A stretch of 64,000 nt of DNA from Antiquaquibacter metalliresistens (GTDB taxonomy: Bacteria > Actinomycetota > Actinomycetes > Actinomycetales > Microbacteriaceae): positions 62,001 to 126,000 of the forward strand of contig NZ_JARGEM010000002.1 of the NCBI RefSeq assembly GCF_029211225.1, read 5' to 3'. Made by a program: the position numbers and the translations under genes. The notes under the pieces are model-generated. The model worked only from the letters and a program-made list of their open reading frames with translations, did not search any database and was not told the DNA's origin. Position 1 is the stretch's first letter. Each line of letters begins with the position of its first letter. This document shows positions 39,354-56,833 of this stretch, piece by piece.

Positions 39354-39398
39354 TGCCCCTGGCGGGACTCGAACCCCCAACCCTTTCCTTAGGACGGA
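39354..39398 (-). pseudogene. 3' half of disrupted host tRNA-Arg(CCT); left attachment site
   Basis: The minus strand reads from the anticodon stem (TCCGTCCTAAGG, the 12-bp core) through variable loop, T-arm (loop TTCGAGT) and acceptor CAGGGGC plus discriminator A. Its acceptor pairs perfectly with GCCTCTG of the 5' half 17 kb away (56827-56833). Upstream of the core the sequence is not tRNA-like, so no functional tRNA forms here. One T-stem mismatch (G-G) suggests decay after disruption. Confidence 0.85.
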
Positions 39399-39453
39399 GA
39401 GGAGACGATGTCCAAGATCATCCTACCGCCCAATGAAACACTAGGAAGTTGGC

Positions 39454-39462
39454 TGTGGATAA
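39454..39462 (-). other. Perfect DnaA box-like 9-mer near left end
   Basis: The minus strand reads TTATCCACA, the consensus DnaA box, just inside the left end of the element and next to the arm repeats. A single box may be chance; no cluster is seen. Confidence 0.3.
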
Positions 39463-39470
39463 CCGCTCGC

Positions 39471-39490
39471 GTATCAACACTTGTATCAAC
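39471..39490 (+). other. Left arm-type integrase repeats
   Basis: Two GTATCAAC copies 12 bases apart (39471-39478 and 39483-39490). The surrounding 24 bases match the right-end copy at 56644-56667 in all but three positions. Position and symmetry with the integrase-proximal end suggest integrase arm-binding sites. Confidence 0.7.
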
Positions 39491-39494
39491 TAGG

Positions 39495-39566
39495 TGCCCC
39501 CGATAGGACTCGAACCTACAACCGACCGCTTAGGACGCGGGCGCTCTTCCATTGAGCTACGGAGGC
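39495..39566 (-). tRNA. tRNA-Arg (anticodon CCT), element-borne
   Basis: A complete 72-nt cloverleaf: acceptor GCCTCCG/CGGGGGC (one G-U), D-arm GCTC-AATGGAA-GAGC, anticodon stem CCCGC/GCGGT with loop GTCCTAA (anticodon CCT, codon AGG), T-arm GTAGG-TTCGAGT-CCTAT, discriminator A. Pair 27:43 is a C-T mismatch, as the reconstructed host copy also mismatches there. The D-arm matches the disrupted host tRNA exactly, but the acceptor, anticodon stem and T-stem differ, so it is a separate gene brought by the element rather than a recent duplicate. Confidence 0.95.
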
Positions 39567-39784
39567 TGGCGTCTCCAAGCTTAGTTCCCGCGCCCCGACG
39601 CCCGCCCCGGGGTGGACTCGGCGCGCCCACCGCTCGCGGATCGTTAGCCGGCGCGGGTGATTCACCCGAGCCGGCGCGGCGCGCCCATCACCTATCCCCT
39701 GTCAAAGGTCTCTGACGCCGAGTCCTCGCGCGCACCTCTCCTCCTGGCGGCATGTGGCCGCCCTCACACACAGGAGGAGACTCA

Positions 39785-41482
39785 ATGTCGTCTGCAATCT
39801 TGCCCACTCCCCCGGAGGTCGGGGATCCGCCGAGAAGGGGCCGACTCCGGGGAGCCCTGTCGCTGGCCGTCGCACTGCTGCTCGCCTTCGGCGGGCTGTT
39901 CGTCGCCGCCGGTCCCGCGTACGCCGGCGGCCACGGCGTCGGCTACGACATCGGCCAGGGCTGGCTGGGCGCCTACCGCGCCGACGACGGGCGTCAGGCG
40001 TACTGCATCGACCTCGGTGCCGCGGTCCCGTTCTCTCCGACGTCGGGTCCGAACACGGTCACCTCTCTGGACGGCCTGTCGCGGCCGCAGCTAGCGCAGC
40101 TGAACTACGTGCTGGCGAAGTGGGGGCAGTCGGGTGATCCGAACCTCACGTCGGCCGTCGCGATGTTCGTCTGGTCCATCGCCGACCCTGGCATCTACAA
40201 CGGCAACGGCGGCGACAGCTACTACATCGCCCGCGCGCCGAGCGGGGCAAGGCCTTCGATCCTCGCCAACCTCGCTTCCATGCGGGCCGAGGCTTCCGCG
40301 TTCGCGGTGACCGACCCGTCGCTGTCGCTGTCGATCGAGATGGCCGACCAGTATGCGGGCACCCTGACCGTGACGGCCAACCCGGCGCACCTGCAGGGCA
40401 CCGCGAACCTGTCCAGGGCGGTGTTCAGCAACGGCGCCACCTCGCGCGTGCTGGGCGCCGGCCAGTTCGGGATCACCGGCACCCCGGCCGACGGCGCCCC
40501 CTGGTACGAGATCGGCGCGTCGATGTCGGTGGCGGCCGAGGGCTACGGGGCCAAACTCGACCTGTACACGGCTGGGGCCGGCGAGCAGCGAATCATCGCC
40601 TCGGTCGCCGGGGCACCCGGCAACCTGTCCGCATCTGCCCAGACGCCTCGGATCGATCTGGACTTCCAGCCGGTGATCGGCACCCAGGTCGCATCCCGCT
40701 ACGTCCAGGAGGGCGATGCGTTCGTCGACCAGCTGGCCGTGTCGGTGACCAAGGGCACCTGGACGATCCTCGACGGGGAGCGCATCCCGATCACCGCGAC
40801 CGGGACGTTGTACGGCCCGTTCGACCAGCAGCCGGTCGAGGCGGACTCCCCGCCGATCGGCGCGCCGATCGCGGGGGTCGAGGAGCTTACTCTTGCCGGT
40901 GCCGGCGACTACTCGTCGGCCGGTTCGATCAGCGCGCCCTCGTCGGGGTTCTACACCTGGGTGTGGGCGATCGACAAGGACGCCCAAGGCGAGCTCGGCC
41001 GCTACCTCATCGGCGGCTACACCGACCGGTTCGGGCAGGTGACCGAGACCAGCGTGGTGCCGTTCCAGCCCCGCGCCATCTCGACGGCGATGCAGCACCT
41101 CGTGGTCCCCGGCGACCCGCTGACCGACCGGCTCGTGGTCTCGAGCACGAACGGCCCGTGGCTGAAGGTCGACGGGCAGCCGATCCCGGTGATCTTCGAG
41201 GGCACGCTGTACCAGGTGCCGGGCACCCGCCCGCCCGCCGGCGCCGGTCCTCTCCCGACGCTCGAGGCCGCCACGGTTCAGGCGGTCGGCGCTGCGGTGG
41301 ATCCGCATGCGGTGCCGGTCGGGACGGTGACGATCACGGCCATGCGCCCGCGCGATGAGCGACTGCGTGCCCGCATCCGCGACAGCCCAGATCGTGGACA
41401 GCGACTTGGGGATCGAGAAGGTGTGGTCATAGCCGGCGACCGCCCGCCGCCGAGGGGAACCGTCGAGGCGCGGAGCGAATGA
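39785..41482 (+). pseudogene. Secreted thioester-domain-like surface protein, 3' end lost
   Basis: 565 codons from ATG 39785, with a strong AGGAGGAGA ribosome-binding site. A signal peptide (about residues 22-47, cleaved after AYA) is followed by a domain with YCIDLG (Cys 74), the pattern of the reactive cysteine in Gram-positive thioester adhesin domains; the partner glutamine is not certain. Beta-rich repeats (DPLTDRLVVSS, IPVIFEGTLYQVPG) follow. After VGTVTITA (base ~41341) the frame runs into sequence antisense to a relaxase fragment, so the last ~46 residues are not original, and the expected wall-anchor is missing. It may still be secreted but unanchored. Confidence 0.7.
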
Positions 41483-41761
41483 ATGGTGCGTGCGGCCAAG
41501 CGGCATCCCCGTGTCCGGGTCGCGACCTTCTCCCAGCAACCGGCGCAGCTGCGTTTCGGTCACTTCCTCGCCGTCATGGATACGACCGGCGGCGAGCCCC
41601 TCCACCCCCGAGCCGAACCAGCGGCCCGGGGGTGCGCCCTTCTCGGTGTAGTAGCGGATCAGCGGGGCTGTCATATCGCGGCTGCCGTCGCCGACCACGA
41701 CTGACTTCAGCAGGTACCGGTAGGCCGCCCCAGCCGACATCACCCGCATCGCCACCGTCAT
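41341..41761 (-). pseudogene. MobF (TrwC/TraI) relaxase, N-terminal fragment
   Basis: About 140 codons from ATG 41761 with GGAGG upstream. VMSAGAAYRYLLKSV with the catalytic-type tyrosines, YYTEKGAPPGRWFGSG, and GYDHTFSIPKSLSTIWAVAD match the start of actinobacterial TrwC relaxases. Similarity ends abruptly at IARAH (about 41341), exactly where the plus-strand surface gene loses its own reading, so the histidine triad and helicase parts are gone. It shows that the element descends from, or recombined with, a conjugative element. Confidence 0.85.
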
Positions 41762-41871
41762 GGTGCACCTCCAATTGGGGAGGTGTCCACGCCATCCCGA
41801 GGCCGAAGCCACCGAGGTCACGTCTCGTCGTGGTGGTCAGCGGCGAGACGCTGACGCCAAGACCCGGGCCG

Positions 41872-42411: not shown

Positions 42412-42588
42412 GGCTCGTTTGAATTCGGGATAAGGGGATTCAGGCGGTCAATCCCCAAGAGGGAGTCGTCGACATGGTCTCCGTCAGATGTGTGAGGCAC
42501 GTCATTCACCTCGAGACCTGCTCAAAACCTGGCCCTCGCACAACGTGAAGCTGCTCGCCTGCAACAGGGTGATCGCGTCGATGATCAG

Positions 42589-42621
42589 GGCGGACCGGGG
42601 GCGGCGCGACCGGGGTCCGCC
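42589..42621. terminator. Possible terminator of the giant surface-protein gene
   Basis: Arms GGCGGACC (42589-42596) and GGTCCGCC (42614-42621) form an inverted repeat 22 bp beyond the stop of the DUF11-repeat gene on the minus strand. No U-tract follows, so this is tentative. The rest of 42412-42643 holds no gene. Confidence 0.4.
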
Positions 42622-42643
42622 ACCCCCGTGCTGTTCCGGTCCA

Positions 42644-45600
42644 CTACTGCCGGTCGCCGGTGCGGACCCGCTCCGCTCGGCGCCTGCGGATCAGCACCAG
42701 AATGGCGCCCCCAAGGAGCAGCAGGACGGCGGCGAGCAGGGGGAGCAAGCTCGTCGTGCGCCCGGTGTACGCCAACGGCGACATTAGGACGCTGACGACG
42801 CAGTGCGTCTGGGCGTTGTCCACCGGCGCGGGCGAGCATTGCGGGAACGAGGCTGGCGCTGCGGCGGTCCCGTTGATTCCGATCACGTTATCCAGGCGGC
42901 CGTCTCCCGTGGCGCTGTTGCGGACCGTGACCGTGTAGCGAATAGTCACCGTCTGTCCCGCGTCGATCGGCCCGGTCCAGGCCAACTCGGAGCCGATGTA
43001 GTTGACGGTGCCGGCGGATGCCGACGCATCGCCGTTGTAGGCGGCGTCATCGAGCACGCCGGACAGCGTGTCGACCACTGTCGCCGGGTCACCACTTGTG
43101 TAGTCCGCACCTCCGATGTTCATGACGGTCGCGGTGTAGGCGATCGTCTGGCCGTAGGTAGTCAGCCTCACGTCTGCGACCTTCGAGAAGGCGAGGGAGC
43201 GCACGCCGGTCTCGGCGATGGCGACGCGGTCAGGTGGCGCACACGGCCCGGGAGCCGTCGGGCAGACTCCTCCCGGCCAGCGGGTCGCGAAGTCCGCGTC
43301 CGCTGTCGCCTCGTTGACGAGGAGGTTGTCACCGGCGAGTGGTGAGTTGACGACCGCCGTGTAGCTGACGGTGACCGACGCGCCCGCGGCGAGCGAGCCC
43401 TGCCAGGTGAAGCCGTCGGCTGTCGGTGTCACCGTTCCCGTGGTCGCGGAGATCGCACCATCTAGAGCGGCATCGTCCAGCACGTCGCGCAGGTCGTCGG
43501 TGAAAGTCGCATCCGGTACGTCGACGAAACCCGTGTTGGTGTACACGATCTGGTAGTCCACCGCACCCCCGGCCGTGACGACGCCGGTGCTCGCGGTCTT
43601 CTCGAGCAGGAAGCCAGGCAGAGGCGTGGATGTCGCCGAGCAGCCGTCGCCTGCGCACGGGTCGGGGACGGGAGGTGTCGTGCCCGGGATGCCGGCGAAG
43701 GCGACGTTGTCGAGTAACTGGTCGCCGGCGGCGGTCACCACGGCCGAGTACACCAGCTGGATCGACTGTCCGGACGCGAGCGCACCCGACCAGTGGATCC
43801 GATTCGCCGGTGTGGTCAGGGCGCCGGTCGACGGCGTGACGGTCACGCTGCCGAGGGTAGCGTCGTCGAGGAGGCCGGAGAGGTCGTCCCAGACCTCGGC
43901 CGGGTAGGTCGAGGTGAAGTCTCCCGCTCCGGTGTTCTCGACCAGGACGGTGTACCCGACGGTGTCGCCGATGCGGATGACCCCGGTGGCGCCGGTCGTC
44001 TTGACGATCCGTAGCTCGGGCAGCTCGATGTCGGCCTCCGCGGTGGCCTCCGACTCGATCACGCCCCCGGTTCCCGAGGACACCGTTGCGGCGTTAGCCC
44101 AGCCGTCCGCGACGGATGCTTGCCCGTTCGGGAGGGTCGCCGTCACCACGACGTCGAAGACGTGGCTCGCTCCGGCCGGGAGGGCGGTTCCCGCCGCGAC
44201 CACGATCGGATCAGCCGTCCCGTCCCAGCTTCCGGAAGTCGCCGGTCCCCCGACGCGGGCGGTCACGGTCGCCACGTCGATCGTCGTACCTGTCGGGAAG
44301 TCCAGCTCGTCCGACATCCCGTAGGTCAGGTCGACGGTCGCGGACGGGTTGGTCACGGTGATGACGTACCGGACCGTCCAGGAGCCGTCGGCGTTCAGCA
44401 CAGGGGTGCCATCGACGGTCTTGGCGATGGCAGGATCGTGCGCGGTCGCGCAAGCGGTCGCGTCGCGCGTAGCGCCGCCGGTGCCGATGCTCGCGGTGTT
44501 GCGGAACCCGGTGCCGGTCTCGCCGCCGCCGAGGACGCAATCACCCGCGGGATCCGTCCCGCGTACCGAGCCGGCGTCGATCACGGCGCTCACGGTGTAG
44601 CGGTGCGTTGCACCGCCGCCGAGCAGGACGTCCTCGGTGAGCGTGGTGTTCGCCTGCCCGTCCCAGGCCGGGTCGATGGTCGCCTCGATCGGCCGGGCAA
44701 CGATCGTCGGCGTGCCGACCAGCGAGACGCCGGCGCCCAGCTCGAAGCCGTCCTCGACGTCGTAGCGTCCGGCGATCGTCGGGCTCGGGTTGGCGACCGT
44801 GACCCGGTAGAGCACCGACCAGGTGCCGTCGGGCAGCTGCTCCTGCGACAGGATCTCCTTGGCCACCCCGAACACCGGAGCCTCCGGTGCTTCGACGCAG
44901 GCGATGTCCGCGGTGGCGCGGCCGCCGACGGTGATCTCCGCTTCGTTGAGCAACCCGCCCGGACCCTGGGCGGGGTCGCACGCCCGCGCCCCGGCCGAGA
45001 GAGCCGCAGCCGCGTCGAAGACGACGGTGACCGTGTAGACGTGCCGGGCCGGGGTGTCCTCGTCGGCGGCTGCCCCGATGGAGCCGGTCGCGAGGGCCGT
45101 CTGAGTCGAGCCGTCGAATCCGGGGTTGAGGGTGCCGGGTCCGGTGATGTCGACCGAGTCGATCGTCGTTCCGGCCGGGAACCCGAAGGTGTCGCTCAAG
45201 GTGTACGGGATGCCGCCGGGGACGGTCGTCGTGGAACGGTTGGTGACCGTGATCTGGTATTCGACCTCCCACAGCCCGGTGAGCGGATCCTGCACCGGAG
45301 GCTGCGTCGTCGTCTTGACGACGCTCGGGTCGGTCGCGGACTCGCAGCCGGCGGCGACGGCGCTCAGCGCACCGCTGGTCAGCGTCGCGACATTGCGGAA
45401 TCCGGTGCCGGTCTCGCCCAGATCAACCCGGCAGTCCATGTCGGCCCAGTTGTCGTCGTCGATGACGGACGGCGGGGTCGCCACCACGGTCACCTGGTAG
45501 GTGTGGGTCGCGCCGCCCGCGAGCTCGATGCCGCTTGCGACCACGGGATCGGCGTCGCCGTCCCAGGTGCCCGAGACGGTGGCGTCGGACGAGGCGATCT

Positions 45601-48600
45601 GCGCGTCGACGATGGCGATCCCGTCACCGAATCCGAGCTCGTCGCTCAGGTCGTACGCGGTGGCGTGCGCCGGGTCGGGGTTCGTGACCGTGATCTCGTA
45701 ACCGATCGTCCAGTCGCCGGTCGTGCCGTCGATGGCGCTACTCGTCACCGTCTTCGTGATCTGCGGCATCGGCTGCGCGACGATCGCCGTGCACGCCGCG
45801 GCCTCGCCGATCGCGACGGAGCTCTCCCCCGAGAGCAGGGTCACGGCGTTGACGTAGCCTCCGGTGCCGGCGGGCGCGCAGGCCAGGGCGGATCCGGTCA
45901 CGGCTCCCGCCGGGACGTCGGTCACCAGGGTCACGGTGTACGACCGCGTCGCGCCTGCGCCCACGCGATCCGCGGCGGTCAGCAGCGCGGTCTGAGCGGC
46001 ACCGTCGAACGAGGGATCGACCACCGCACCGCCCGGACCGGCGACCGTCACCTGCTGCACGGTCACGCCCGCGGGCAGGCCGAAGGCATCCTCGAGGGTG
46101 TAGGCCAAGCCGCCGGCCGGCGCCCCGGCCGGCGCCGAGACGCCGATCGTGTAGACCGTCGTCCAGCTGCGGTCGGGGTTCTGGGTCGTCGCCACGACTG
46201 CCTTCGTCACGGTCGGCTCGACCGGTTCGGCACAGCTCTCCGAGTCCATCAGGCGGCCACTCGGCAGTTCGATCGAAGCGCGGTTGGCGAAGCCCCCGCC
46301 CACGCCGTCGACGCACTCCGCGGCGGCCGTGCCCGCGAGGTCGCCCGCGTCGGCGACAACGGTCACGAGGTACTCGTGGGTCGCCCCGGCGGGGAGGGTC
46401 ACCGTGCCGGTGACCGCTCCGGACCCTGTCCAGGGCTCGAGCGCGACCCCTGCCGGGCCGCTGGTCACGGTCGCGGAGTCCGCGTCGATCCCCGCTCCGA
46501 ACCGGAGTTCGTCGGAGAGGGCGTAGTCGACGGGTGCGTCGTCGTTCCGGTTCGTCACGTCGATCCCGTACACGATGGTCCAGGTGCCGTCGTCGTTCTG
46601 CTCCAGCGATTGCACGTTCTTCGACACCAGCGGCCCGAGGCGGGTCGTGGTGGTCGCGCAGGGGGCGTCGTCGTCAGCGATCCCGGTCGCGGGGTCGCAG
46701 GTATCGGCAGCCGAGGTGAAGGCGGTGTTCGTCAGGTCACCGTCGCCTCCGGAGCCGACGGTGACCCGATAGCTCAGCACGACGGTCCCGCTGTCCGGCA
46801 GCGTCCCGCTCCAGCTCAGCTCCCCGCCCGACGGGTCGGCGAGCGGGGACGGGCTTCCGCCGCCGATGGCGACCGTGCCTGAACCGGGGATGTAGGCCGC
46901 GTCATCGAGCAGGTCGTCGAGCACGTCGCGGACGGCGGCGCCGGGGAAAGGGGCCGTGCCGTCGTTGCTGAGGGTGATCGTGTACGTGAGCTCATCGCCG
47001 TCGTAGACGCCCTCGGCGGGTGCGTTCACCGTCTTCTCGATCGAGTAGAGCAGCAGATCATCGGTGTCGGTCGCCTCGCCGGTGAGCGTCCGGCCCGGAT
47101 CGGCCGGGTCGATCGCCGTCGCCTCCGCCGTGTTCTCGATCGTGCCGGTCGCGCCGGTTGCGACGCGCACCGTGACCGTGCGGGTCACCGAAGAACCGGC
47201 TGCGCCGCTCGGGTCGTCGCCGTCCGGGCCGGGTTCGCCCGCCGCGGCGAGGTCGATGCCGGTCCAGGTGACGACTCCGGACGCGAAGGCGCCGCCGTCC
47301 GAGGCGGACACGAACTCGAGTCCGGGCGGCAGGGTGTCGGTGATCGTCGCGCCGGTGATCGGCTCGCCGACCAGCCCGTTGGCGACCGTGATGGTGTAGC
47401 CGTACTCGTCACCACGGAGCACGGTGGTGCGGCCGTCGTCCTTGGTCACCAGCAGCTCGGGCACGCCGGGGGCGATGACGAAACAGGCTTCGGCGTCGTT
47501 GTTGCCCGGCACCGGATCCGACATGGCGCCGTGCACCAGACCCTCGACGCAGACGGTCGAGCCGCTCGTCGGGACGACCGTGATGTCGAGCGCGTCCGGC
47601 ACGTCGGCGACGAGCAGGCGCGGGCCGCCGACGCTCGTCACGGCGGTGCAGGTCAGCACGAGCGGGCCGGTCTGAGTGCCGCCGTCGATCGAGCACGACC
47701 AGCCCGCGGGGGCGAGGTCCGCGACGCGCAATCCGGCCGGGATCTGCACGTCCACGGTCGCGGGGGCGAGTGCGGAGCCGCCGTTGTTGGTCACGGTAAA
47801 CGGCAGGATGCCGGGGCGCCCGGTCTGCAACGGCAGCCGGTCGGGGACCTCGAGCTCGAGGTCGGCCTCCTGCGTCGTCGCGCAGACCGGGAGCGGCTCT
47901 GCCGGCACACCCATCTGGTCGGCCTTCGCGGCGACCGAGTTGCAGGCGATCGCGTCCGCCGCGGCGCCGGGCACGACCTCGGCGTCGTACTGGAACGAGA
48001 CCTCGGCGCCGGGGGCGAGCGAGCCGGTCGAGGTGGCGCGGATCGCCTGTGCACCCGCCTCCGCCGCCGATCCGGTCGCCCAGTCCCCGACGCAGCCCGC
48101 CGGGCCACCGGGGTAGACCTCGGCGCGACACGGGTTGACGCTGTCCGAGAAAGCCAGGGTCACACCGCTTGAGGCCGCGATCCCGCTGAGCAGCTCCTGG
48201 AAGGTGGAGCCGCGCGGCGTGGAGGCGAGTGACGAGCTCGTGCCCACGTCGCCCAGGTAGGGCAGCACGTCGTAGGCGACGATGTTCGTGAGCGCGGTGT
48301 TGCCGCTGTTGACGATGCGCACCCGGTAGGAGATGTCGGTCGCGTCGGGGTTGACGCCGACGAGGGCGCCGGGTTCGGAGATCCAGTCGCAGCCGTCCGG
48401 CGCCCCGGTGTCGGGGAAGCAGATCTCCTTGATGACGGTCATCCCCGCCGTCGCGCCGACCCCGACGGCTGCGGCGTTGAGGGTCGCGAAGCCCTCGGTG
48501 GTCACGCCGTCGGCGTCGATGTCAGTGGTGTCGGTGACCGGACCGGTGTAGACGGCCTGAGTGGTATCCCAGTCGTGGCTGGCCTCGCCCGCCCAGGCGA

Positions 48601-51214
48601 CGGCGACGCCGCTGCTGCCCGCGGCTGCGGCGAAAGTCGGCTGGGCCGCGACCGTCATCGTCGGCCAGGTCGCGTTGGCGCCGAAGCTGGTGCCGATCGG
48701 CCAGTTCGCGACGACGACGCTCCGCGGCACGCCGGCGATCGTCACCGTCCGGTAGGAGAACTCGACGCCCGGCGGCACCGTGCCCGCGACGAACGACGCC
48801 GAGCCGGGCCCGACGACCCAGTTCACCGGTGCGACGAACACGTACTGCGGAGTGAAGGTCTCCCCGGTCGGGATGAACGAGCTGGTCCCGCGCACCGAAT
48901 AGGTCACATCGCGGCCCGGGACGGCGAGTCCGCCGCCCTCGACGACCGGGCTGCCCACGAACTGCGCCGCGATGCGCGGACGGGTGTCGGCCGAGCCGAA
49001 CGAGACGCTGCCGGTCGCCGACAGCGCCACGTCAGCGACGCCCATCCCAGGGTAGGTCAGCATCACGTCGGCGGTGTTGGTCCACAGCCCGGACTCGGTG
49101 TCCGGGGGCACCGCGAAGACGAGCCGCAGCTCGTAATAGGAGGTCGTCGTGTTCTGGCTCGTCACCGCGTTGACGGGCTGGATGACCGAGGAGGTGACGT
49201 GCGCGGCGGTGATCCAGGTACCGGCCGGAGCGGTGAACGGGACCGCAGCGGTACCCGTCGCCCCCGTGTTGAGGGTGTACTGCACGGTCGCGCCGGTGGC
49301 CGTGTTGTTGGTGCTCACGGTATGGGTGATCTGGGTGACCCGGGCCTGATGGCCGCCGAGGTCGGGTTCGTCGATCACCGCGACGGCGGGCACGTTGCCG
49401 GTATTGCGCGCGACGATGCTCCAGTAGTGGGTCGCCGACCCGGTCGACGGAGGCACGATGACCCCGGCCGTGCCGCTGTTGGTGCTGCTCTTGGTCACGG
49501 TTCCGCGGCCGAACGGGGCGACGAAGTTGATGCTGTGGGTGCGGTCGCCCAGCAGGACCGGGGCCAGTCCCGGGCTGTCCGGGTAGGTCATCGTGGCCGT
49601 CGCCGTGTTGCTGCGGTTCTGCCCGACCGGAGCGTCGGCCGTCACCGCGTAGAAGGCGCGCACGGTGAAGGTCGTCTGTGCGGTGCCCGTGCTCAGCTGA
49701 TTGGGTCCAGGCATCGAGCCGGAGGTCACCCGCATGTTCGTGAACCAGTGGCCGGCGGGTGCCGTGGCGATGCCCATCGACATCCCGGTGCTGCCATCGT
49801 CGAGTGTCCATTCGATCGTCGCCTCGGCCCACGGCGTCGATGTGCCCGACGCGTAGGCGATGATCTGGTCGGTGCGGGTGCCCTGCACGTCGAGGTCGTC
49901 CTCGATCACTGCCACTCCTGGCACGTTGGCCTGGTTGCCGACCGAGATATCCCAGTTGTGGCGGTTGAGGTCGGGCGCCGGCTGAACCGCGACCGGGGAC
50001 ACCCCGCCGATCCGCGCCGGACCGTCAAAGGTCGAGGTCTTGCCGTTGTAGATCGCCTTCGCGAACGGTTCGATGCAGGCGATGTTGTGCGTCCGGGGGG
50101 CCGAGATCGTGCGCACGTTGCTGTCGTCGGGCATCCCGCCCGCGCCGAGGTAGATCATCGTCATGCTCACCGTGGTCGTGACCGCCTGCGTGAAATTGCA
50201 GTAGTCCGGGTCATCGCCACCGGGCGAGAACGCCTCGGCCGGGTAGTTGACCACCACAGTGCGCGGGATCTGGGTGTTCGAGTTGCCCGCGCGGTACCAG
50301 CCGATCGCCGGCTCGCCGACACCGGCACCGGGGGCCGCCGTCCAGGTGACGGTATGCGCGCCCGAGTCGTAGACCCCGCCGTTACTGGCGCTTACGAACA
50401 CCGCGCGCGGGTCCAGCTGCTGGGTGACGACATAGCTCTTGGCGCAGGTGAAGCGTGCATCGCCCTTCGGGGCGGTATCCCGGATCGGGAGGCATCCGCT
50501 GTTCATGTTGATCGAATAGGTGACGTTGGTATCGGAGTCCTGGGATCCCGGGTTGGAGATCGCGAGCGCGGGGTCGCGGATCGTGGAGCGCCACTCCACC
50601 GCCGCGGCGGTCGCAGCGGGCACGTTCGAGATCGTGCTCGACTCGCCGGTGACCGACATGACGATCGGGAACCCGTTCGGGAAGAACTGCGCCGCCCGCA
50701 CGGTCGTGGTCGACGCGTTGCCGATCATCGACCAGGTGTAGTTGACCTGGAAACTGCCGACCGATCCGGCGGCGAGGTCGCCGAGGTTGATCGTGAGCCC
50801 GCTGGGGCCATCGCCGGAGATCGTCGCGCCGAGGAACGGCGCCGTCCAGTTCTGGTAGGTCAGGTGCTGCCAGACCCCGTACGTCGGGTCGAACGGGGCA
50901 GGTGACACGCGCACGACGGAGCCAGCGCAGTCGGCGTTGCTGCACGAGTAGCTGATCCGGTAGCCGAGATTCGTGCCGACACCGGCCGCGGTGCTACCCG
51001 CCCACGTCTGCGGGGCGCCGGTCGCGACGTCGACCGGCTCGATCGAGATGGTCAGCACACCATCGCCGGCGGCGGATGCGGCTGCCGGCGTCAGCAGCGG
51101 AACGATGAGCGCCAGAAGCGCGGCGAACGCCGCGGCAACGATCCGGCCTCGCCGGCTTCCCCGACCAGACTCCCCGCTGACCAACCGGACACGAAACTTC
51201 CGACGCGTGTTCAC
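42644..51214 (-). CDS. Giant DUF11-repeat surface protein with LAYTG sorting signal
   Basis: 2,856 residues from GTG 51214, preceded by GAGGGGGAA. A signal peptide lies at about residues 18-50 (hydrophobic AAAFAALLALIVPLLTPAAA). The first ~1,150 residues are large beta-rich domains; then about a dozen DUF11/SpaA-like modules follow, each opening with a pattern such as VTKxVxx..NxDxSWTVxYxIxVTNP. The C terminus is LAYTG, a membrane helix and RRRRAERVR, a class E sortase-type signal. It should be a long wall-anchored stalk or adhesin. It is transcribed from an ECF-like promoter at 51281-51307 shared with the RCC1 gene. It is 8.6 kb, half of the element. Confidence 0.9.
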   Translation of the reverse strand: MNTRRKFRVRLVSGESGRGSRRGRIVAAAFAALLALIVPLLTPAAASAAGDGVLTISIEPVDVATGAPQTWAGSTAAGVGTNLGYRISYSCSNADCAGSVVRVSPAPFDPTYGVWQHLTYQNWTAPFLGATISGDGPSGLTINLGDLAAGSVGSFQVNYTWSMIGNASTTTVRAAQFFPNGFPIVMSVTGESSTISNVPAATAAAVEWRSTIRDPALAISNPGSQDSDTNVTYSINMNSGCLPIRDTAPKGDARFTCAKSYVVTQQLDPRAVFVSASNGGVYDSGAHTVTWTAAPGAGVGEPAIGWYRAGNSNTQIPRTVVVNYPAEAFSPGGDDPDYCNFTQAVTTTVSMTMIYLGAGGMPDDSNVRTISAPRTHNIACIEPFAKAIYNGKTSTFDGPARIGGVSPVAVQPAPDLNRHNWDISVGNQANVPGVAVIEDDLDVQGTRTDQIIAYASGTSTPWAEATIEWTLDDGSTGMSMGIATAPAGHWFTNMRVTSGSMPGPNQLSTGTAQTTFTVRAFYAVTADAPVGQNRSNTATATMTYPDSPGLAPVLLGDRTHSINFVAPFGRGTVTKSSTNSGTAGVIVPPSTGSATHYWSIVARNTGNVPAVAVIDEPDLGGHQARVTQITHTVSTNNTATGATVQYTLNTGATGTAAVPFTAPAGTWITAAHVTSSVIQPVNAVTSQNTTTSYYELRLVFAVPPDTESGLWTNTADVMLTYPGMGVADVALSATGSVSFGSADTRPRIAAQFVGSPVVEGGGLAVPGRDVTYSVRGTSSFIPTGETFTPQYVFVAPVNWVVGPGSASFVAGTVPPGVEFSYRTVTIAGVPRSVVVANWPIGTSFGANATWPTMTVAAQPTFAAAAGSSGVAVAWAGEASHDWDTTQAVYTGPVTDTTDIDADGVTTEGFATLNAAAVGVGATAGMTVIKEICFPDTGAPDGCDWISEPGALVGVNPDATDISYRVRIVNSGNTALTNIVAYDVLPYLGDVGTSSSLASTPRGSTFQELLSGIAASSGVTLAFSDSVNPCRAEVYPGGPAGCVGDWATGSAAEAGAQAIRATSTGSLAPGAEVSFQYDAEVVPGAAADAIACNSVAAKADQMGVPAEPLPVCATTQEADLELEVPDRLPLQTGRPGILPFTVTNNGGSALAPATVDVQIPAGLRVADLAPAGWSCSIDGGTQTGPLVLTCTAVTSVGGPRLLVADVPDALDITVVPTSGSTVCVEGLVHGAMSDPVPGNNDAEACFVIAPGVPELLVTKDDGRTTVLRGDEYGYTITVANGLVGEPITGATITDTLPPGLEFVSASDGGAFASGVVTWTGIDLAAAGEPGPDGDDPSGAAGSSVTRTVTVRVATGATGTIENTAEATAIDPADPGRTLTGEATDTDDLLLYSIEKTVNAPAEGVYDGDELTYTITLSNDGTAPFPGAAVRDVLDDLLDDAAYIPGSGTVAIGGGSPSPLADPSGGELSWSGTLPDSGTVVLSYRVTVGSGGDGDLTNTAFTSAADTCDPATGIADDDAPCATTTTRLGPLVSKNVQSLEQNDDGTWTIVYGIDVTNRNDDAPVDYALSDELRFGAGIDADSATVTSGPAGVALEPWTGSGAVTGTVTLPAGATHEYLVTVVADAGDLAGTAAAECVDGVGGGFANRASIELPSGRLMDSESCAEPVEPTVTKAVVATTQNPDRSWTTVYTIGVSAPAGAPAGGLAYTLEDAFGLPAGVTVQQVTVAGPGGAVVDPSFDGAAQTALLTAADRVGAGATRSYTVTLVTDVPAGAVTGSALACAPAGTGGYVNAVTLLSGESSVAIGEAAACTAIVAQPMPQITKTVTSSAIDGTTGDWTIGYEITVTNPDPAHATAYDLSDELGFGDGIAIVDAQIASSDATVSGTWDGDADPVVASGIELAGGATHTYQVTVVATPPSVIDDDNWADMDCRVDLGETGTGFRNVATLTSGALSAVAAGCESATDPSVVKTTTQPPVQDPLTGLWEVEYQITVTNRSTTTVPGGIPYTLSDTFGFPAGTTIDSVDITGPGTLNPGFDGSTQTALATGSIGAAADEDTPARHVYTVTVVFDAAAALSAGARACDPAQGPGGLLNEAEITVGGRATADIACVEAPEAPVFGVAKEILSQEQLPDGTWSVLYRVTVANPSPTIAGRYDVEDGFELGAGVSLVGTPTIVARPIEATIDPAWDGQANTTLTEDVLLGGGATHRYTVSAVIDAGSVRGTDPAGDCVLGGGETGTGFRNTASIGTGGATRDATACATAHDPAIAKTVDGTPVLNADGSWTVRYVITVTNPSATVDLTYGMSDELDFPTGTTIDVATVTARVGGPATSGSWDGTADPIVVAAGTALPAGASHVFDVVVTATLPNGQASVADGWANAATVSSGTGGVIESEATAEADIELPELRIVKTTGATGVIRIGDTVGYTVLVENTGAGDFTSTYPAEVWDDLSGLLDDATLGSVTVTPSTGALTTPANRIHWSGALASGQSIQLVYSAVVTAAGDQLLDNVAFAGIPGTTPPVPDPCAGDGCSATSTPLPGFLLEKTASTGVVTAGGAVDYQIVYTNTGFVDVPDATFTDDLRDVLDDAALDGAISATTGTVTPTADGFTWQGSLAAGASVTVSYTAVVNSPLAGDNLLVNEATADADFATRWPGGVCPTAPGPCAPPDRVAIAETGVRSLAFSKVADVRLTTYGQTIAYTATVMNIGGADYTSGDPATVVDTLSGVLDDAAYNGDASASAGTVNYIGSELAWTGPIDAGQTVTIRYTVTVRNSATGDGRLDNVIGINGTAAAPASFPQCSPAPVDNAQTHCVVSVLMSPLAYTGRTTSLLPLLAAVLLLLGGAILVLIRRRRAERVRTGDRQ

Positions 51215-51280
51215 GTTACTTCCCCCTCGTCCGCTCCCCTGATCGGAGCCGCCCGAATCGCGCACCAGTGCGCTTAAGGG

Positions 51281-51307
51281 AATAGACGAGAAGCCGACCG
51301 GATCCTT
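51281..51307 (-). promoter_or_regulatory. ECF-like promoter of the DUF11 surface gene
   Basis: The minus strand reads AAGGATC, 12 bases, CGTCTATT. The same two boxes with identical spacing occur before the RCC1 surface gene (53317-53343). CGTC is the common -10 core of ECF promoters, and GGATC is close to the GGAAC -35. The boxes lie 67 bp before the GTG. Confidence 0.7.
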
Positions 51308-51397
51308 ACATGCCGGCCGTCGGGCGTACGGCGACACCCGGGCGGGTCTACGAGACGAGGGGGGGTCGACCCGCTCCCGCCCGGGTGCGCGTCCCCC

Positions 51398-53296
51398 TTA
51401 GCCCGTCCGCTTCCGCAGCACGGACCGGAGGGTCCAGAAACCGGCGCCGAACGCCGCGAGGGCACCGCCGAGCAGCGCCGCCAGTGGTGCACTGCTCGAC
51501 ATGCCCGAGTAGGCGAGGGTCGTCTCGCCGGAGATGCTGCGCGGGCCCGGAGCACCGGGCGTGGGGCCCGCCGAGGCAGCCAAGATGCTGATCGTGTAGA
51601 CGCCCGAAGCCTCTCCCGCCGAGTTGGTCGCCGTTATGGTCGCAAGGTAGTTCCCGACCGCGGTGGGCGTTCCCGAGAGAGTTCCCGACGTCGGGTCGAA
51701 CGACAGGCCAGGCGGCAGCACACCAGCGACCGTCAGCGCGATCGGACCGGTCCCCGTGGTCGTGACAGTGTGGGTGTACGGCTCCCCGACCTGCCCGTCC
51801 GGGGGGTCACCCGAGGTGATGACCGGGGGCACGGCAGGGGTGAGATACGTGAAGCCGTCGACCTCGAAGTGCGTCGGTCCCGCGCCACCTGTCCTGGTCT
51901 GCGTCAAGACCGTCACGCCCACCGGACCCGCCGGGTGAGCGGGTGTCGTCGCTTCGACGGTCGTGCCGAAGTCCGCGAATGCGGTCGCCAGGATGCCGTC
52001 GAAGGTCACGCCGGTCGCCACGAGGGGCGAGAGCACCGACACGAATGACGTTCGCTGAATCGCCGTGCCGTCGCCGAGCTCGCCTTGGAAGTTCCTCCCC
52101 GCCGCGAGCAGTGAACCGTCGGAAAGTCGGATCGCCGTCGCGTACTGCCCGGCCGACAGCTGCACGACGCGGCGGCCCGTCGGCACGGGGACCGTCAACG
52201 AACCCGGCACCGATCTGGGGTCCGTCGTGCCGTCACCGAACTGGCCGTAGCCGTTCTGCCCCCAGGCGAACGCGGTGCCGTCCGAGGAGAGGAAGTAGGA
52301 GCTGTCGTTGTACGCCACGATCGACGCCGCCGACACCCCGGGAGGCATGCTCACCGGAACGGCGAGCGCGGATGAGCCCGATGTCGTGCCGATGCCGAGC
52401 CGCCCGAGCGCGTTGTTCCCCCAGCTGTAGAGCAGCCCATCGGTGCCCAGAGCGAGCCCGTGCTGCCGTCCGGCAGCCACGGCCGTGAACGTGACGCCGA
52501 CCGGGACGCTCGTCGTCACGACGGATGCCCAGGACTGCGCGGTGCCGCCCCGACCGAGGATGCCGAGGACGGTGGTCGCACCCGCGCTGTAGACCATGCC
52601 GTCGGCCCCGAGCACGTACCCGCCGGTCTGACTCGTGGCCGCATCCAGCGCGGCTACGCCACCTGGCAGCGTGAGCAGCACAGGGGTGGGACTCGCCGCC
52701 GTCGTTCCGTTGCCGAACTTGCCGTTGTTGTAGCCCCAGCCGTAGAGTCCCCCCGTCGTGGTGATCGCGAATACGGTCGCCGTGAGCACGATATCCTGGT
52801 CGTAGTCGGCGTGCACCGAGCTGACCGTTGCGCCGCTCGGCAACGCGACCGGCACCGGCAGCGACCTGCCGATCGTCGTTCCATCGCCGAGCTCTCCGAC
52901 GGCGTTGCCTCCCCAGGAGTACACCGCGCCGGTGCTCGTGACCGCGTAGGAGGAATGCGCACCACCTTCGATCTGCGTGACGACGGTTCCCGCAGGAAGC
53001 TGCACCCGCACCGGGACCAGGCTGTCGGTCATCGTTCCATCGCCAAGCTGGCCGTAGTCGTTGTCCCCCCAGGCCCAGACGGCGCCGTCCTCGGTCAACC
53101 CGAGGGTGTGGTAGTTGCCCTCCGTCACCTGCACAAACCGGTTGGGCGGGAGATCGATCGTCACGCTCGTGCCGCCCGCGGTCGGGCCGGACGGCGGCGT
53201 GACCGTCGCCCAAGCTCCGGCCGCCCCTGTGACAAGCACGGCAACCCCCGCGGCCGCAATCGCCATCAGAACCCGGAACCGTCTCCGTGCGCTCAT
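51398..53296 (-). CDS. RCC1-repeat beta-propeller surface protein with LAYSG sorting signal
   Basis: 632 residues from ATG 53296 (GAGGGGG, 8 bases spacing). After a signal peptide (about residues 10-30), seven or so RCC1 repeats follow, each with the GLTEDGAVWAWGDNDYGQLGDGT-type pattern, forming a beta-propeller. An Ig-like putative domain (PPDGQVGEPYTHTVTTTGTGPIALTVAG) comes next, then LAYSG, a membrane helix and RKRTG, a variant LAxTG sorting signal. It should be displayed on the cell wall. Its promoter is shared in motif with the giant gene; it lies 48 bp after the sigma-fusion gene on the same strand. Confidence 0.9.
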   Translation of the reverse strand: MSARRRFRVLMAIAAAGVAVLVTGAAGAWATVTPPSGPTAGGTSVTIDLPPNRFVQVTEGNYHTLGLTEDGAVWAWGDNDYGQLGDGTMTDSLVPVRVQLPAGTVVTQIEGGAHSSYAVTSTGAVYSWGGNAVGELGDGTTIGRSLPVPVALPSGATVSSVHADYDQDIVLTATVFAITTTGGLYGWGYNNGKFGNGTTAASPTPVLLTLPGGVAALDAATSQTGGYVLGADGMVYSAGATTVLGILGRGGTAQSWASVVTTSVPVGVTFTAVAAGRQHGLALGTDGLLYSWGNNALGRLGIGTTSGSSALAVPVSMPPGVSAASIVAYNDSSYFLSSDGTAFAWGQNGYGQFGDGTTDPRSVPGSLTVPVPTGRRVVQLSAGQYATAIRLSDGSLLAAGRNFQGELGDGTAIQRTSFVSVLSPLVATGVTFDGILATAFADFGTTVEATTPAHPAGPVGVTVLTQTRTGGAGPTHFEVDGFTYLTPAVPPVITSGDPPDGQVGEPYTHTVTTTGTGPIALTVAGVLPPGLSFDPTSGTLSGTPTAVGNYLATITATNSAGEASGVYTISILAASAGPTPGAPGPRSISGETTLAYSGMSSSAPLAALLGGALAAFGAGFWTLRSVLRKRTG

Positions 53297-53316
53297 CCCC
53301 AATGCCCCCTCGTCCG

Positions 53317-53343
53317 AATAGACGAGATAGGGCGCCGATCCTT
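53317..53343 (-). promoter_or_regulatory. ECF-like promoter of the RCC1 surface gene
   Basis: AAGGATC, 12 bases, CGTCTATT on the minus strand, identical in both boxes and spacing to the site before the DUF11 gene. It occupies the short gap after the sigma gene, starting at that gene's stop codon, so the RCC1 gene has its own promoter rather than relying on read-through. A GGACGAGGGGG ribosome-binding region downstream is also shared by the two genes. Confidence 0.72.
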
Positions 53344-54822
53344 TCACGGCGTCGGCGCGGGGGTCGGGGTCTGCTCTGGTGTCGGGAGCGGACCCCAGCT
53401 GAAGCCCGTCGTAGTAACCCCCTCCGCGAGCGCCTCGACTTGCACGAGATACTCCCCGTCGTCGGGCATCCCCCCAGCGGCGACGAGCGTGAACCGCGAG
53501 CTGCCGGGAACCTTGCCATCGAACGTGCACCTGGCCCCGCCGTCGTCCATGGGACAACTCCAGCCGGTGGACGCAGCTACGATCCGCACCGTGTCCGGCA
53601 ATGCGATCGAGAACGAGACCAGCGACCACTCGTCGGCCTCAATGTCGAAGTCGACCTCGAGTCCCACCGACCCACCCCGGTACGGCGTCACCGTCGTCCC
53701 CAGGTGTGCGGCCGGCGCGTCGAACGCGGCGATCGGGACCACCGAGCTGCCGGGCAGATCCAACACACCCGACGCGCCCAACCACGCCGCCATCAGAAGC
53801 CCCGCGCCCGCGATCAGAGTCACAACGGCGACGACGACTCCGGCGGGCCCAACCACCACTGCCCGTGCCACCGCACCGGCACGGGCCAAGATCGCTCCCG
53901 CGCCGGATACGCCGATCGTTCCCAGAGGGCTACCGTTGCCGGGGCGCCCGACCGCCCAGGCGACGCTCGGTGCCGGGGCGGTCTTGGAACTGGAAATCGA
54001 CGAAACCCGTGCTCCCTCGTCCGACACGGAACCGGCGGTAGCTGCGGCCGTCGCCGCGGGTGCCGGTGAGCCGACCACGAGGCCCACGCTCAACAGCGGC
54101 AGGATGCCGAGCGCGCTGGTCAGCGTCGCGTATCGATTCCAGACTGTGCGGCAATCCACGCAGCCGAGCACGTGCAGAACCCCAGCCGCGCCAGCCGGAT
54201 GCGCCTCGGGCGCATCGAATACTTGCGACGGCAAGGCCTCGGCGTTCACCGCGCATTCCTCGCGGCCCTCGCCGAGCATCACTACGAGCAGCTCTCGCCG
54301 AAGTGCCGTCTTCGACCGTGTGACCAGTGTGGAGACCGCGCCTGCCGAGCGACCCAGCTCCGACGCCACCTCACGTGGTGGTCGCCCGTTCACGACCACC
54401 TCGCGAAGAGCTCGCTGGGAATCGGCGCTAAGCCGGTCGAACGCCCGTCGCACCAGATCGAACTCGGAGTGCAGCTCCACGCTCTGAAGAGATTCGGGTA
54501 TCGACGGCAGGCTGGATTCCGGCAGCTCTTCGACCCACGCTTCGCGTGCCCGCGGAGAACGATGCTCATCGATCTGCCGATTCCGCATTGCGGCTACCAG
54601 ATAGGTCAGCACGTTCTCGGCAGGCCCTTCGCCGCGCTTCCACAGTTCCAGCAGCCGCGCCATCGCCCCGGCCAGCAGATCTTCGGCGCGATCAGGCGAT
54701 GTTGCCACACGCCGCGCCATTAGCCGCAGATAGGGGAAGTGGCGTGCGAAGAACTCGCCTGCCGCCGCGCTATCACCCGCCATCGCCTTGGCTATCAGCT
54801 CCGCCTCGGGGATGGCCTTCAC
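53344..54822 (-). CDS. ECF sigma factor fused to zinc-finger, membrane and DUF11-like domains
   Basis: 492 residues from GTG 54822 (GGGGAGGG seven bases upstream; GTG/ATG codons at 54885-54879 are alternatives). Residues ~22-90 are sigma region 2, ~118-180 region 4 (VASELGRSAGAVSTLVTRSK). H217-x3-C221-x2-C224 fits the zinc anti-sigma (ZAS) motif. Hydrophobic segments follow at ~232-251 and ~320-349, then a beta domain with WSC...RC (residues 421-432) resembling DUF11 modules, and a Pro/Thr tail. If both segments cross the membrane, the C-terminal domain would be inside, so topology is open. ECF groups with C-terminal membrane extensions are known in actinobacteria. It is the likely activator of the two neighbouring surface genes. 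Confidence 0.85.
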   Translation of the reverse strand: MKAIPEAELIAKAMAGDSAAAGEFFARHFPYLRLMARRVATSPDRAEDLLAGAMARLLELWKRGEGPAENVLTYLVAAMRNRQIDEHRSPRAREAWVEELPESSLPSIPESLQSVELHSEFDLVRRAFDRLSADSQRALREVVVNGRPPREVASELGRSAGAVSTLVTRSKTALRRELLVVMLGEGREECAVNAEALPSQVFDAPEAHPAGAAGVLHVLGCVDCRTVWNRYATLTSALGILPLLSVGLVVGSPAPAATAAATAGSVSDEGARVSSISSSKTAPAPSVAWAVGRPGNGSPLGTIGVSGAGAILARAGAVARAVVVGPAGVVVAVVTLIAGAGLLMAAWLGASGVLDLPGSSVVPIAAFDAPAAHLGTTVTPYRGGSVGLEVDFDIEADEWSLVSFSIALPDTVRIVAASTGWSCPMDDGGARCTFDGKVPGSSRFTLVAAGGMPDDGEYLVQVEALAEGVTTTGFSWGPLPTPEQTPTPAPTP

Positions 54823-54990
54823 TTCTGGACCCTCCCCTCTCCGACTCGGACGCTCAGATACGATTTTACCGGGGCTCATGGGCACACTCGACCTGACCCA
54901 GGCTCGCGCTGCGCATGTCCCGGGACTCTTGTCTTGATCTCAAGTTGACAGGAGCTGTGTGCGTCGGCAATTGAGTCTGGACCCTTCCGC

Positions 54991-55299
54991 TTATATCGCG
55001 GTGAACGTGGGCGCCCGACCTGCCCAGCCGCCGGTGCACTGCTGCTGTCGGCCCAGGAAGAAGCCCTTCGTCCAGGCCAGCAGACCGGCGGTGTACGGCG
55101 AGTCGTCTGGGGCCGCCGACAGGTGCTCCCTGCCCTCGTACTCCCTGGCCCGCCCCGCAGCGATCGGCCACTGCTCGTGCACCGTCAGCAAGATGAGCTG
55201 GTCGGCCGCGCTCCACAGTGTTACGATGATCCGTCCGGGCGGCTTGTTCTCGCCGAGCCTCTCGCGGCGCGCCCCGGTCAAGTACGTCGAGCCAGACAT
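54991..55299 (-). CDS. Hypothetical protein between sigma fusion and integrase
   Basis: 102 residues from ATG 55299 (a GTG three codons upstream is possible). Soluble, no signal peptide; IIVTLWSAADQLILLTVHEQWP and LLAWTKGFFLGRQQQCTGGW are protein-like stretches that do not match a family I know. It lies downstream of the integrase gene on the same strand, a position often taken by recombination-directionality or control genes, but it has no visible helix-turn-helix. Uncertain. Confidence 0.4.
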   Translation of the reverse strand: MSGSTYLTGARRERLGENKPPGRIIVTLWSAADQLILLTVHEQWPIAAGRAREYEGREHLSAAPDDSPYTAGLLAWTKGFFLGRQQQCTGGWAGRAPTFTAI

Positions 55300-55361
55300 G
55301 GCGGCCACCGTGAGAAGTGTCGCAGGCGTTGTTGAACCAGCGAGACTTTCGCCCGAGTCTG

Positions 55362-56630
55362 CTAGACGTTCGCAAGGTAGCGGATCATTTTAGCTGCGTC
55401 TGCCTGCCACATGCGCGCGATGACCGAGTCCGGGACGCCGAGTTGCATCAGCAGAGTAACCATCGTGTGCCGTGCGAAGTGCGTAGTCGGCGTCTCGGGA
55501 GTGCCGGGCGGGCGATCCTTGAGATCCTTCGCTTGTTCGGCCGTGATGACCCCGGCCGCGTGCAGGACCGACCTCCACTCGGCCTGGTCCTCCCAGTCGG
55601 CCCAGGGAGAACCATCCGACCGGTGCCAGATCAGGTTGTGCGGATTTGGATCAGCCTCGGTGCGGTCTAGGTACGCGACGATCCGATGGAACTCCGGCTC
55701 GATCAGGGGGAACCGGCGAACCTTGCCAGACTTGGGGCGAACGAGATACTGACGCCCCTTGATGTGCCGGTACTCGAGGCCGGGACGCAGCATCGGTCGC
55801 GCCTGTGGGCAATTGCCCCCGCGCTTTCGACCGCAAGTCCCGCCGCAACCGTGGTCGTGCGGAACGTCGGTCATCGACCACTGCACGATGAACTCCCGAG
55901 TCTCGCGATCTACGCTGTCGCGGGTCGCGCCGAGCCGCTCGCCCTGGCGGATCCCCCCGAGGAGAGAGACCCACCATCGCGTGCCGTCGGGCCTGCGGTC
56001 GGCCTCATCGAGCACGGCGATCGCGTGATCCACCGCGAGCGCTCCCCGCTTCTTGCCTGAGGCGTTCGGTGCATCGACGTCGCGAATCACGCTCGGAATG
56101 CGGAACTCCTTGCGGGCGTCCTCAAAGAAACGAGACAACGTCCAGTGCAGCTTGAGCGCCGTCGTCGACGCGCGCCCGCCGCGATGGATCGCCGAGTAGA
56201 TATCGAGGATGTGAGAGGGCCGCAGGTCGGCAATGCGCTTAGTCCCGATTCGCGGCAGCACCCACACGTTGAACTGCGATCTGACCGTCCCATACTGGGA
56301 TGGCTTGTAGGACGCCAGGGCGATGTTCTCGAGCCACTTCGCGTAGTAGGCGGCTACCGTGACGGTGCGGTTCGCTACGCCGCCGCTGGTGCGGATCTCG
56401 GTCTTCGCCTCCTCGAGCTTCTCTACGACTTCCGCGACCGTGCGCCCCCAGTAGGTCTTCTGATTCCGCTTGCCTGGCACCTCTGGCGGCAGCTCGAGCG
56501 TTGCCCGATAGCGACCGAGCTTGTCCGGCCCCGATATGCCGCCCTCGCCCTGGCGTCGCCTCGGGCGCTGCTTCTTCGCCTTTCTCGTGGTCCCCGTCGA
56601 GGTTGTTTGACTGGTTGATTGTGCAGCCAA
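55362..56630 (-). CDS. Tyrosine recombinase (integrase) of the element
   Basis: 422 residues. An N-terminal basic/arm-binding region (residues ~15-65), a SAM-like core-binding domain (~90-175) and the catalytic domain follow the phage-integrase plan. Catalytic residues: Arg 228 (GGIRQGERLG), His 384 and Arg 387 (HFARHT), Tyr 418 (MIRYLANV). A Cys-rich insertion (CGGTCGRKRGGNC, ~262-274) is typical of actinobacterial integrases. The usual Gly-His pair before the tyrosine reads WQ, and the protein ends four residues after Tyr 418, so activity may be reduced. It lies 165 bp from the right core, so it is the enzyme that made the insertion. Confidence 0.9.
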   Translation of the reverse strand: MAAQSTSQTTSTGTTRKAKKQRPRRRQGEGGISGPDKLGRYRATLELPPEVPGKRNQKTYWGRTVAEVVEKLEEAKTEIRTSGGVANRTVTVAAYYAKWLENIALASYKPSQYGTVRSQFNVWVLPRIGTKRIADLRPSHILDIYSAIHRGGRASTTALKLHWTLSRFFEDARKEFRIPSVIRDVDAPNASGKKRGALAVDHAIAVLDEADRRPDGTRWWVSLLGGIRQGERLGATRDSVDRETREFIVQWSMTDVPHDHGCGGTCGRKRGGNCPQARPMLRPGLEYRHIKGRQYLVRPKSGKVRRFPLIEPEFHRIVAYLDRTEADPNPHNLIWHRSDGSPWADWEDQAEWRSVLHAAGVITAEQAKDLKDRPPGTPETPTTHFARHTMVTLLMQLGVPDSVIARMWQADAAKMIRYLANV

Positions 56631-56645
56631 TTTCGTGCTCCGTCC

Positions 56646-56665
56646 GTATCAACATTCGTATCAAC
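56646..56665 (+). other. Right arm-type integrase repeats
   Basis: Two GTATCAAC copies 12 bases apart (56646-56653 and 56658-56665), matching the left-end pair in sequence, spacing and orientation. They lie just upstream of the integrase start, so binding could also control its transcription. A 9-bp inverted repeat CGGCATGTG/CACATGCCG (56668-56697) adjoins them. Confidence 0.7.
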
Positions 56666-56794
56666 TACGGCATGTGAATCCATGACGGCACATGCCGGCA
56701 CCGGAGAGGCCGACAGAGCCCGACTTCCCTTTGTTTATGGGCAGATCGGCTGATTTCCGGGGGACGATGTCTCTTCCCGGAAGTAAGGTGTTCG

Positions 56795-56833
56795 CCTTAG
56801 GACGGAACTGCTCTTCCATTGAGCTACAGAGGC
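56795..56833 (-). pseudogene. 5' half of disrupted host tRNA-Arg(CCT); right attachment site
   Basis: The minus strand reads acceptor GCCTCTG, TA, D-arm GCTC-AATGGAA-GAGC, base 26, anticodon stem GTTCC and loop GTCCTAA (anticodon CCT), then GG, where the 12-bp core ends. The following sequence into the element does not form the other half of an anticodon stem, a T-arm or an acceptor. The native 3' half is at 39354-39398. Confidence 0.85.

Follow-up and report, generated by a model that had tools for sequence, protein, structure and literature searches.

How does a bacterium go on reading AGG when a mobile element has broken, within the anticodon arm, its gene for the transfer RNA (tRNA) with the CCT anticodon? 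The question is raised by a 64-kb stretch of the Antiquaquibacter metalliresistens genome (the window; contig NZ_JARGEM010000002.1), in which a 17.4-kb element separates the two halves of the host tRNA-Arg(CCT) gene. According to a preliminary description of the same DNA, the host gene is split by an element that brings its own divergent tRNA-Arg(CCT), and two findings support this: the site is empty in relatives, and no second CCT tRNA is among the 46 tRNA matches of the genome. Here it is proposed, with a probability of about 0.85, that the locus arose through tRNA-dependent integration of a non-phage element, and that there are signs of a lasting tRNA gene replacement in which the supplied gene would take over the function of the broken one. 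Positions are those of the window; labels in G, L and C denote genomes, loci and contigs, G000 being the window's own genome.

The two halves of the host gene are the following:

39354-39398, minus strand: 3' half of the split tRNA-Arg(CCT) gene, now displaced (12-bp core: 39387-39398)
56795-56833, minus strand: 5' half of the split tRNA-Arg(CCT) gene (12-bp core: 56795-56806)

The coordinates of these halves and their core, as first described, were confirmed: the 12 bp common to both (39387-39398 = 56795-56806) lie over the anticodon loop, and the two cores are 17.4 kb apart. Joined by a script, the halves give a 72-mer that ARAGORN calls tRNA-Arg(cct). The cloverleaf of 72 nucleotides (nt) proposed for them holds in this respect and its acceptor closes; the perfect pairing does not hold as described, since one G-T pair is included and the T stem is imperfect. 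Five genomes of the same genus have an intact gene with 99% identity to the 72-mer, the single difference being the T-stem mismatch. At one T-stem position the displaced 3' half is unlike all 13 native genes compared (the pattern read 13 of the 20 native loci given), which may be taken as a first sign of relaxed selection at most.

Neither junction re-forms the host tRNA-Arg(CCT), as had been claimed. ARAGORN found no tRNA in 400 bp of the right junction, and in 700 bp of the left junction it called the inner tRNA-Arg(cct) and a 93-nt tRNA-Pro(tgg) only. The latter call (39355-39447), built on the displaced tRNA half, was rejected as an ARAGORN artefact. The whole region lies within one 529-kb contig of the draft assembly (34 contigs, 97.7% complete), so no contig join is involved. 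That the arrangement is an artefact of assembly or annotation, for which the draft state of the genome might speak, is barely credible, as both junctions are inside that contig and a like arrangement occurs in the independent single-contig genome G002 described below.

A degenerate second 3' fragment of the same tRNA gene was observed at 39157-39186, about 170 bp beyond the displaced half, and is probably the scar of another element; similar fragments occur at G020:C39:331104 and G026:C2:382305.

The complete tRNA with the same anticodon, described earlier as lying about 100 bp inside the left end, was found 96 bp inside the core and is preceded by a promoter-like box:

39495-39566 (39493-39566 in ARAGORN), minus strand: complete element-borne tRNA-Arg(CCT) (ARAGORN; RF00005 with 60.4 bits, cut-off 29)
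39578-39583, minus strand: TAAGCT, a -10-like box at the position where native genes have TAAACT, TAGGCT or TAAGCT

Energy-based folding did not produce a cloverleaf for the tRNAs by themselves, and the calls rest on ARAGORN and RF00005. The inner tRNA has 76% identity to the host gene; the D arm is common to both, and the acceptor, the anticodon stem and the T stem differ. Its anticodon stem is unlike the core of the host attachment site (attB) on both sides of the shared loop. Upstream, it has CTAAGCT, and one of the three forms of the box is present in 13/13 native genes read by pattern, out of the 20 loci given. As to its origin, 579 phage records match the replacement tRNA, with at most 84.8% identity in the best rows (40 of 579); no donor was found among these records, none matching at 90% or more. 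The viral contigs gave no match to the replacement-tRNA pattern, and the pattern scan of the genome contigs gave one stretch, in JAJYBG010000002.1.

The G000 assembly has 46 tRNA matches, 45 of them with an ARAGORN anticodon, and its arginine tRNAs are ACG, CCG, TCT and the element's CCT. The host's dependence on the element had been made to hinge on whether another tRNA reads AGG; no second tRNA-Arg(CCT) was found among the 46 matches of this 97.7%-complete assembly. The 46th match (C23:495217, 30.1 bits) is a decayed proline-type copy with no ARAGORN anticodon and no CCT triplet, and a repeat scan of the 401 bases around it lists only its intact neighbour. This tRNA-Pro copy (L045 118-188, G000:C23:495217-495287) has a 5' half like the neighbouring intact tRNA-Pro(GGG) and a 3' part unlike it, and may be another broken or copied tRNA in G000.

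A search for the joined gene covered 27 genomes of the genus, including the window's own. All of them match it, 25 at full length (72 or 73 nt, 89-99%, the five mentioned above being at 99%), and the two genomes without an intact gene are G000 and G002. G016 provides a clear empty site, with the intact gene between both window flanks: the left flank is 79% identical over 1451 bp, including a fic gene (86% identity in amino acids, aa), and the right flank has CHAP and HNH genes. The comparison with element-free relatives is in agreement with the claimed break of a host gene, which is intact in 25/27 genomes and has both flanks in G016; the same halves without an element were not seen among the 27 genomes. 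In the second split genome, G002, the halves are 3.6 kb apart and share a 15-bp core by eye, and the insert also has its own tRNA, a complete tRNA-Arg(CCT) with 81% identity to the host gene, about 100 bp after the 5' half. The cargo of this insert (L075 5753-9049) includes a GmrSD-type restriction protein and an open reading frame (ORF) of 459 aa for which no family was matched.

The ends of the window element have the features expected of a site-specific integration, with the following elements:

39470-39490, plus strand: left pair of putative integrase arm-type sites (CGTATCAAC..GTATCAAC)
56645-56665, plus strand: right pair of putative integrase arm-type sites
55362-56630, minus strand: tyrosine integrase gene (PF14659, 8.7e-6; phrog_1, 9e-30), with its start codon 164 bp from the core

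The motif GTATCAAC has four copies in the 64-kb window on either strand, all within the two pairs and with equal spacing: at 39471 and 39483, from the core to the inner tRNA, and at 56646 and 56658, from the core to the integrase gene. In the circular form these pairs would flank the core like the arm-type sites of a lambda-type attP (the attachment site of the element). Since the arm-like pairs bracket the core and the inner tRNA is just outside attP, the inner tRNA would belong to the element. A second PHROG family matched by the integrase carries an endonuclease label. Relatives of this integrase were found in 490 phage records, the best being Microbacterium phage vB_MoxS-R1 (NC_070775; 45%, two records), the nearest phage integrase; the other phage rows among the matches listed reach at most 31.4%, with LeBron at 26%. 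The plasmid collection has three records with relatives, the viral contigs gave no integrase match, and the scan of genome contigs with the integrase gave no relative. Unlike the window element, vB_MoxS-R1 has 50-bp end repeats with a tRNA 3' half and is of the rebuilding type, the isotype being Thr by eye.

Among genomes, an integrase match is present in 17 of the 398 of the family (expect value, E, 1e-20) and in 9 of the 396 of the order (E 1e-40), the window's own being in both counts. The 26 loci of relatives, with 1.5-kb flanks of which some are ended by contig ends, were compared with the G000 tRNAs at E limits of 0.001 and 0.05. A 3' half of at least 40 nt was found in eight loci and a shorter 3' piece of 20-38 nt in five; three have a complete tRNA only, one (G115) has a 5' half, and in the other nine no tRNA piece reaches 20 nt; ARAGORN makes an odd 100-nt call in one of them. 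With one 5' half among the 26, the arrangement of the window, in which the 5' half is beside the integrase, is an exception. In G115 (L146, L142) the complete tRNA is on another contig, with foreign sequence upstream and the native flank downstream, and the element seems to bring a 5' half, restoring the tRNA, instead of the usual 3' half; the Islander collection has 159 islands with a 5' fragment versus 3760 with a 3' fragment (PMC4383910). The window element could be viewed as a canonical one that has lost its integrase-side 3' half by decay, with the inner tRNA as a later arrival, as the 3' pieces beside half of the related integrases and the 50-bp 3'-half repeat of phage R1 would suggest. 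The integrase is, however, on the 5'-half side in both the window and G115, and no T arm follows the core by eye, making this explanation quite unlikely; as an evolutionary path it is possible, and would leave the present state unchanged.

Outside the genus, the best matches to the window replacement tRNA among the 398 family genomes are those of G148 (92%) and G201 (90%). Some match is present in 390 of these genomes, two candidates being scored per genome; such figures are to be read as 'at least', and the prevalence of splits is given for the genus only. The G148 tRNA is identical to that of G002 (100% of 73 nt), these two genomes belonging to different genera, and the G201 tRNA is 97% identical to this G002/G148 type. 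In the genus of G148, with four genomes, the native gene is present in G079 and G248, and G148 and G201 (88% complete) have the replacement type only, as determined by BLAST. The replacement tRNA of G148 is at the orthologous site: in an alignment with G248, 5.4 kb separate the end of the upstream flank from the tRNA, and about 170 bp after the tRNA there is a decayed 3' half that has lost the core (positions 39-72, 91%), with the common downstream flank beyond it. A 5' half could not be detected in G148, the best score being 9 against a shuffle mean of 9.1. We read G148 as an old insertion whose tRNA would have become the host gene. The 5.4-kb insert (L113 with L114) contains, by eye, a polymorphic-toxin-carrier-like ORF of 473 aa and a PadR-like ORF. 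In G201 the 40 kb read contained no tRNA half, and another contig has a 29-nt 3' fragment; G201 appears to be a weaker case of a lone replacement than G148.

Several observations weigh against tRNA-dependent integration as the explanation of the locus. The one-base T-stem difference is weak evidence of decay of the displaced half, and among the related integrase loci 13/26 have a 3' tRNA piece and 1/26 a 5' half as in the window. The inner tRNA is near the 5' half in G002 and near the 3' half in the window, and the ends of the G002 insert share no 8-mer besides the core, so no arm repeats were seen there. Nor did G002 yield a relative of the window integrase, so only the core suggests a like enzyme for that insertion. 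A second tRNA-Arg(CCT) could be missing from the assembly of G000 (97.7% complete) or of G201 (88%). The remaining points concern the need for the gene: the host has a tRNA-Arg(TCT) that might cover AGG by wobble, and this codon is rare, with 21 occurrences among the 12,298 residues of 21 long window ORFs, some of them perhaps spurious. On these last two grounds the split tRNA might be dispensable, with tRNA-Arg(TCT) reading AGG, and the inner tRNA passive cargo or an old host gene. This is very unlikely, as an inner tRNA of exactly the lost anticodon is near an insert end in both split genomes of the genus (2/2), no split without an inner tRNA was seen in the 27 genomes, 25 of which keep the native gene, and in G148 and G201 BLAST detects no tRNA-Arg(CCT) other than the replacement type.

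The nature of the carrier is indicated by the remaining genes of the element:

39785-41482, plus strand: secreted-protein-like ORF, no family matched (start chosen by the analyst; the ORF list starts at 39752)
41339-41734, minus strand: first third of a TrwC/MobF relaxase, a remnant (PF08751, 3.7e-26, profile positions 1-106 of 286)
42644-51337, minus strand: repetitive surface protein of 2897 aa (DUF7927/DUF11), with tail LAYTG and a membrane segment
51398-53629, minus strand: RCC1-repeat and Ig-like surface protein, with tail LAYSG and a membrane segment
53344-54885, minus strand: sigma-70-family factor with a long C-terminal extension (profile matches)

The element appears, in our reading, to be a decayed conjugative or mobilizable element; a complete relaxase is not present, the match being to TrwC profile positions 1-106 of 286 only. 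The alternative is a temperate-phage remnant, integrated by ordinary tRNA-dependent lysogeny, in which the virion genes were lost and replaced. The integrase relatives, in 490 phage versus three plasmid records with the best at 45% in vB_MoxS-R1, are consistent with this, as are the PHROG matches of the sigma factor and of the RCC1 protein, one RCC1-based match being to a tail-protein family. Nevertheless, no terminase, portal or capsid match was found among the eight element proteins scanned against PHROGs, whose matches comprise the integrase, the sigma factor, RCC1 and one weak function-less family, and the MobF relaxase remnant favours a conjugative or mobilizable ancestor. A phage origin is judged unlikely on this basis. 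Within the element, the relaxase remnant adjoins the secreted-protein-like ORF of the opposite strand, and the two large surface-protein genes (42644-53629), whose sorting-signal-like tails were judged by eye, adjoin the sigma-factor gene. Two small ORFs of the element matched no family.

The arrangement had been called unusual in the preliminary description, but it has a precedent, published as tRNA-dependent lysogeny (Guerrero-Bustamante & Hatfull 2024, PMC10865867) for the phages Fionnbharth, LeBron, Gaia and others. Table 2 of the paper, in which LeBron is listed as a tRNA-dependent phage, gives tRNA-Lys-TTT, Ile2-CAT and Leu-CAA as targets, with arginine tRNAs absent; the extent of the device outside actinobacteriophages is left open by the authors, who name prophage Lj965. 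As in these phages, the window element has putative arm-type site pairs about the core, a tyrosine-family integrase beside the attachment site, a short core (12 bp, compared to about 10 bp) with no junction rebuilding the tRNA, a complete tRNA of its own, and a split tRNA otherwise unique among the 46 tRNA matches of the host. It differs from them in that its carrier does not appear to be a temperate phage: it has a relaxase remnant and surface proteins, its target is tRNA-Arg(CCT), no virion genes were found, and there are relatives where the replacement seems to outlive the element. By analogy, the window element is taken to work like tRNA-dependent lysogeny, and is filed as a variant of it and not as a phage lysogen.

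Other systems share part of these features. In Sinorhizobium meliloti, a prophage is reported to substitute a divergent tRNA-Leu(UAG) for the inactivated one of the host, and three genomic islands with phage sequence are reported to have tRNA-Thr(GGU) genes; the terms used in that paper are host tRNA gene substitution and tRNA gene diversification (PMC11476347). Because host tRNA substitution by phage-related sequences has been published there, the general idea of replacement is not new; that case differs in belonging to the Alphaproteobacteria and in its phage-related carriers, and the available portion of that account includes no decayed locus with a lone replacement. Canonical tRNA islands (Islander, PMC4383910) also have a tyrosine integrase, and an anticodon-centred crossover is among their common sublocations (2083 islands); they carry a gene-restoring fragment, whereas the window element restores nothing, no tRNA being rebuilt at either junction according to ARAGORN, and brings a whole gene. 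No published case of a conjugative-type carrier of tRNA-dependent integration was found in a limited literature search. What is new here is the carrier, with a relaxase remnant and surface-protein genes and no phage module found, the tRNA-Arg(CCT) target, the second split in G002 with its own tRNA and restriction-type gene, and the decayed locus of G148.

In the mechanism proposed, the 17.4-kb integrative element would have entered when its own tyrosine integrase recombined the short core of attP with the anticodon loop of the tRNA-Arg(CCT) gene; this core is too short for the tRNA to be rebuilt at either end. The complete tRNA-Arg(CCT), with its own putative promoter and just outside one arm of attP, would then take over the reading of AGG. 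This replacement should largely escape the same integrase, since its anticodon stem is unlike the core on each side of the loop. Retention of the element, or of its tRNA part, is probably necessary or at least advantageous for the host, and among relatives the supplied gene seems to have survived the element, becoming the only such gene of the host.

A mechanism shown in phages would in this way be extended to a carrier for which no virion genes were found. Cargo such as the surface proteins or the restriction enzyme may be stabilised by the supplied tRNA in the manner of an addiction module. More tentatively, and with somewhat less than an even chance, tRNA-dependent integration could be a general device of actinobacterial mobile elements, conjugative and defence-carrying ones included, that drives a one-way turnover of tRNA genes: a target-resistant tRNA would spread between genera, make loss of the element costly and stay after its decay as the only such gene of the host. 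The relatives look like a series from a fresh split to a lone replacement, in which the window (with integrase), G002 (stripped element), G148 (decayed half) and G201 (no half nearby) would be the successive states, and the exchange of a 'conserved' tRNA gene by mobile elements becomes testable.

The intact gene has other possible visitors. A weak integrase match (E 4e-11 to 5e-8) is present within about 1 kb of it in three of the 27 genus genomes (G007, G019 and G026), and G174 has what looks like a canonical element of 46 kb at this tRNA. The tRNA-Arg(CCT) gene is, judging from the loci compared, an integration hot spot.

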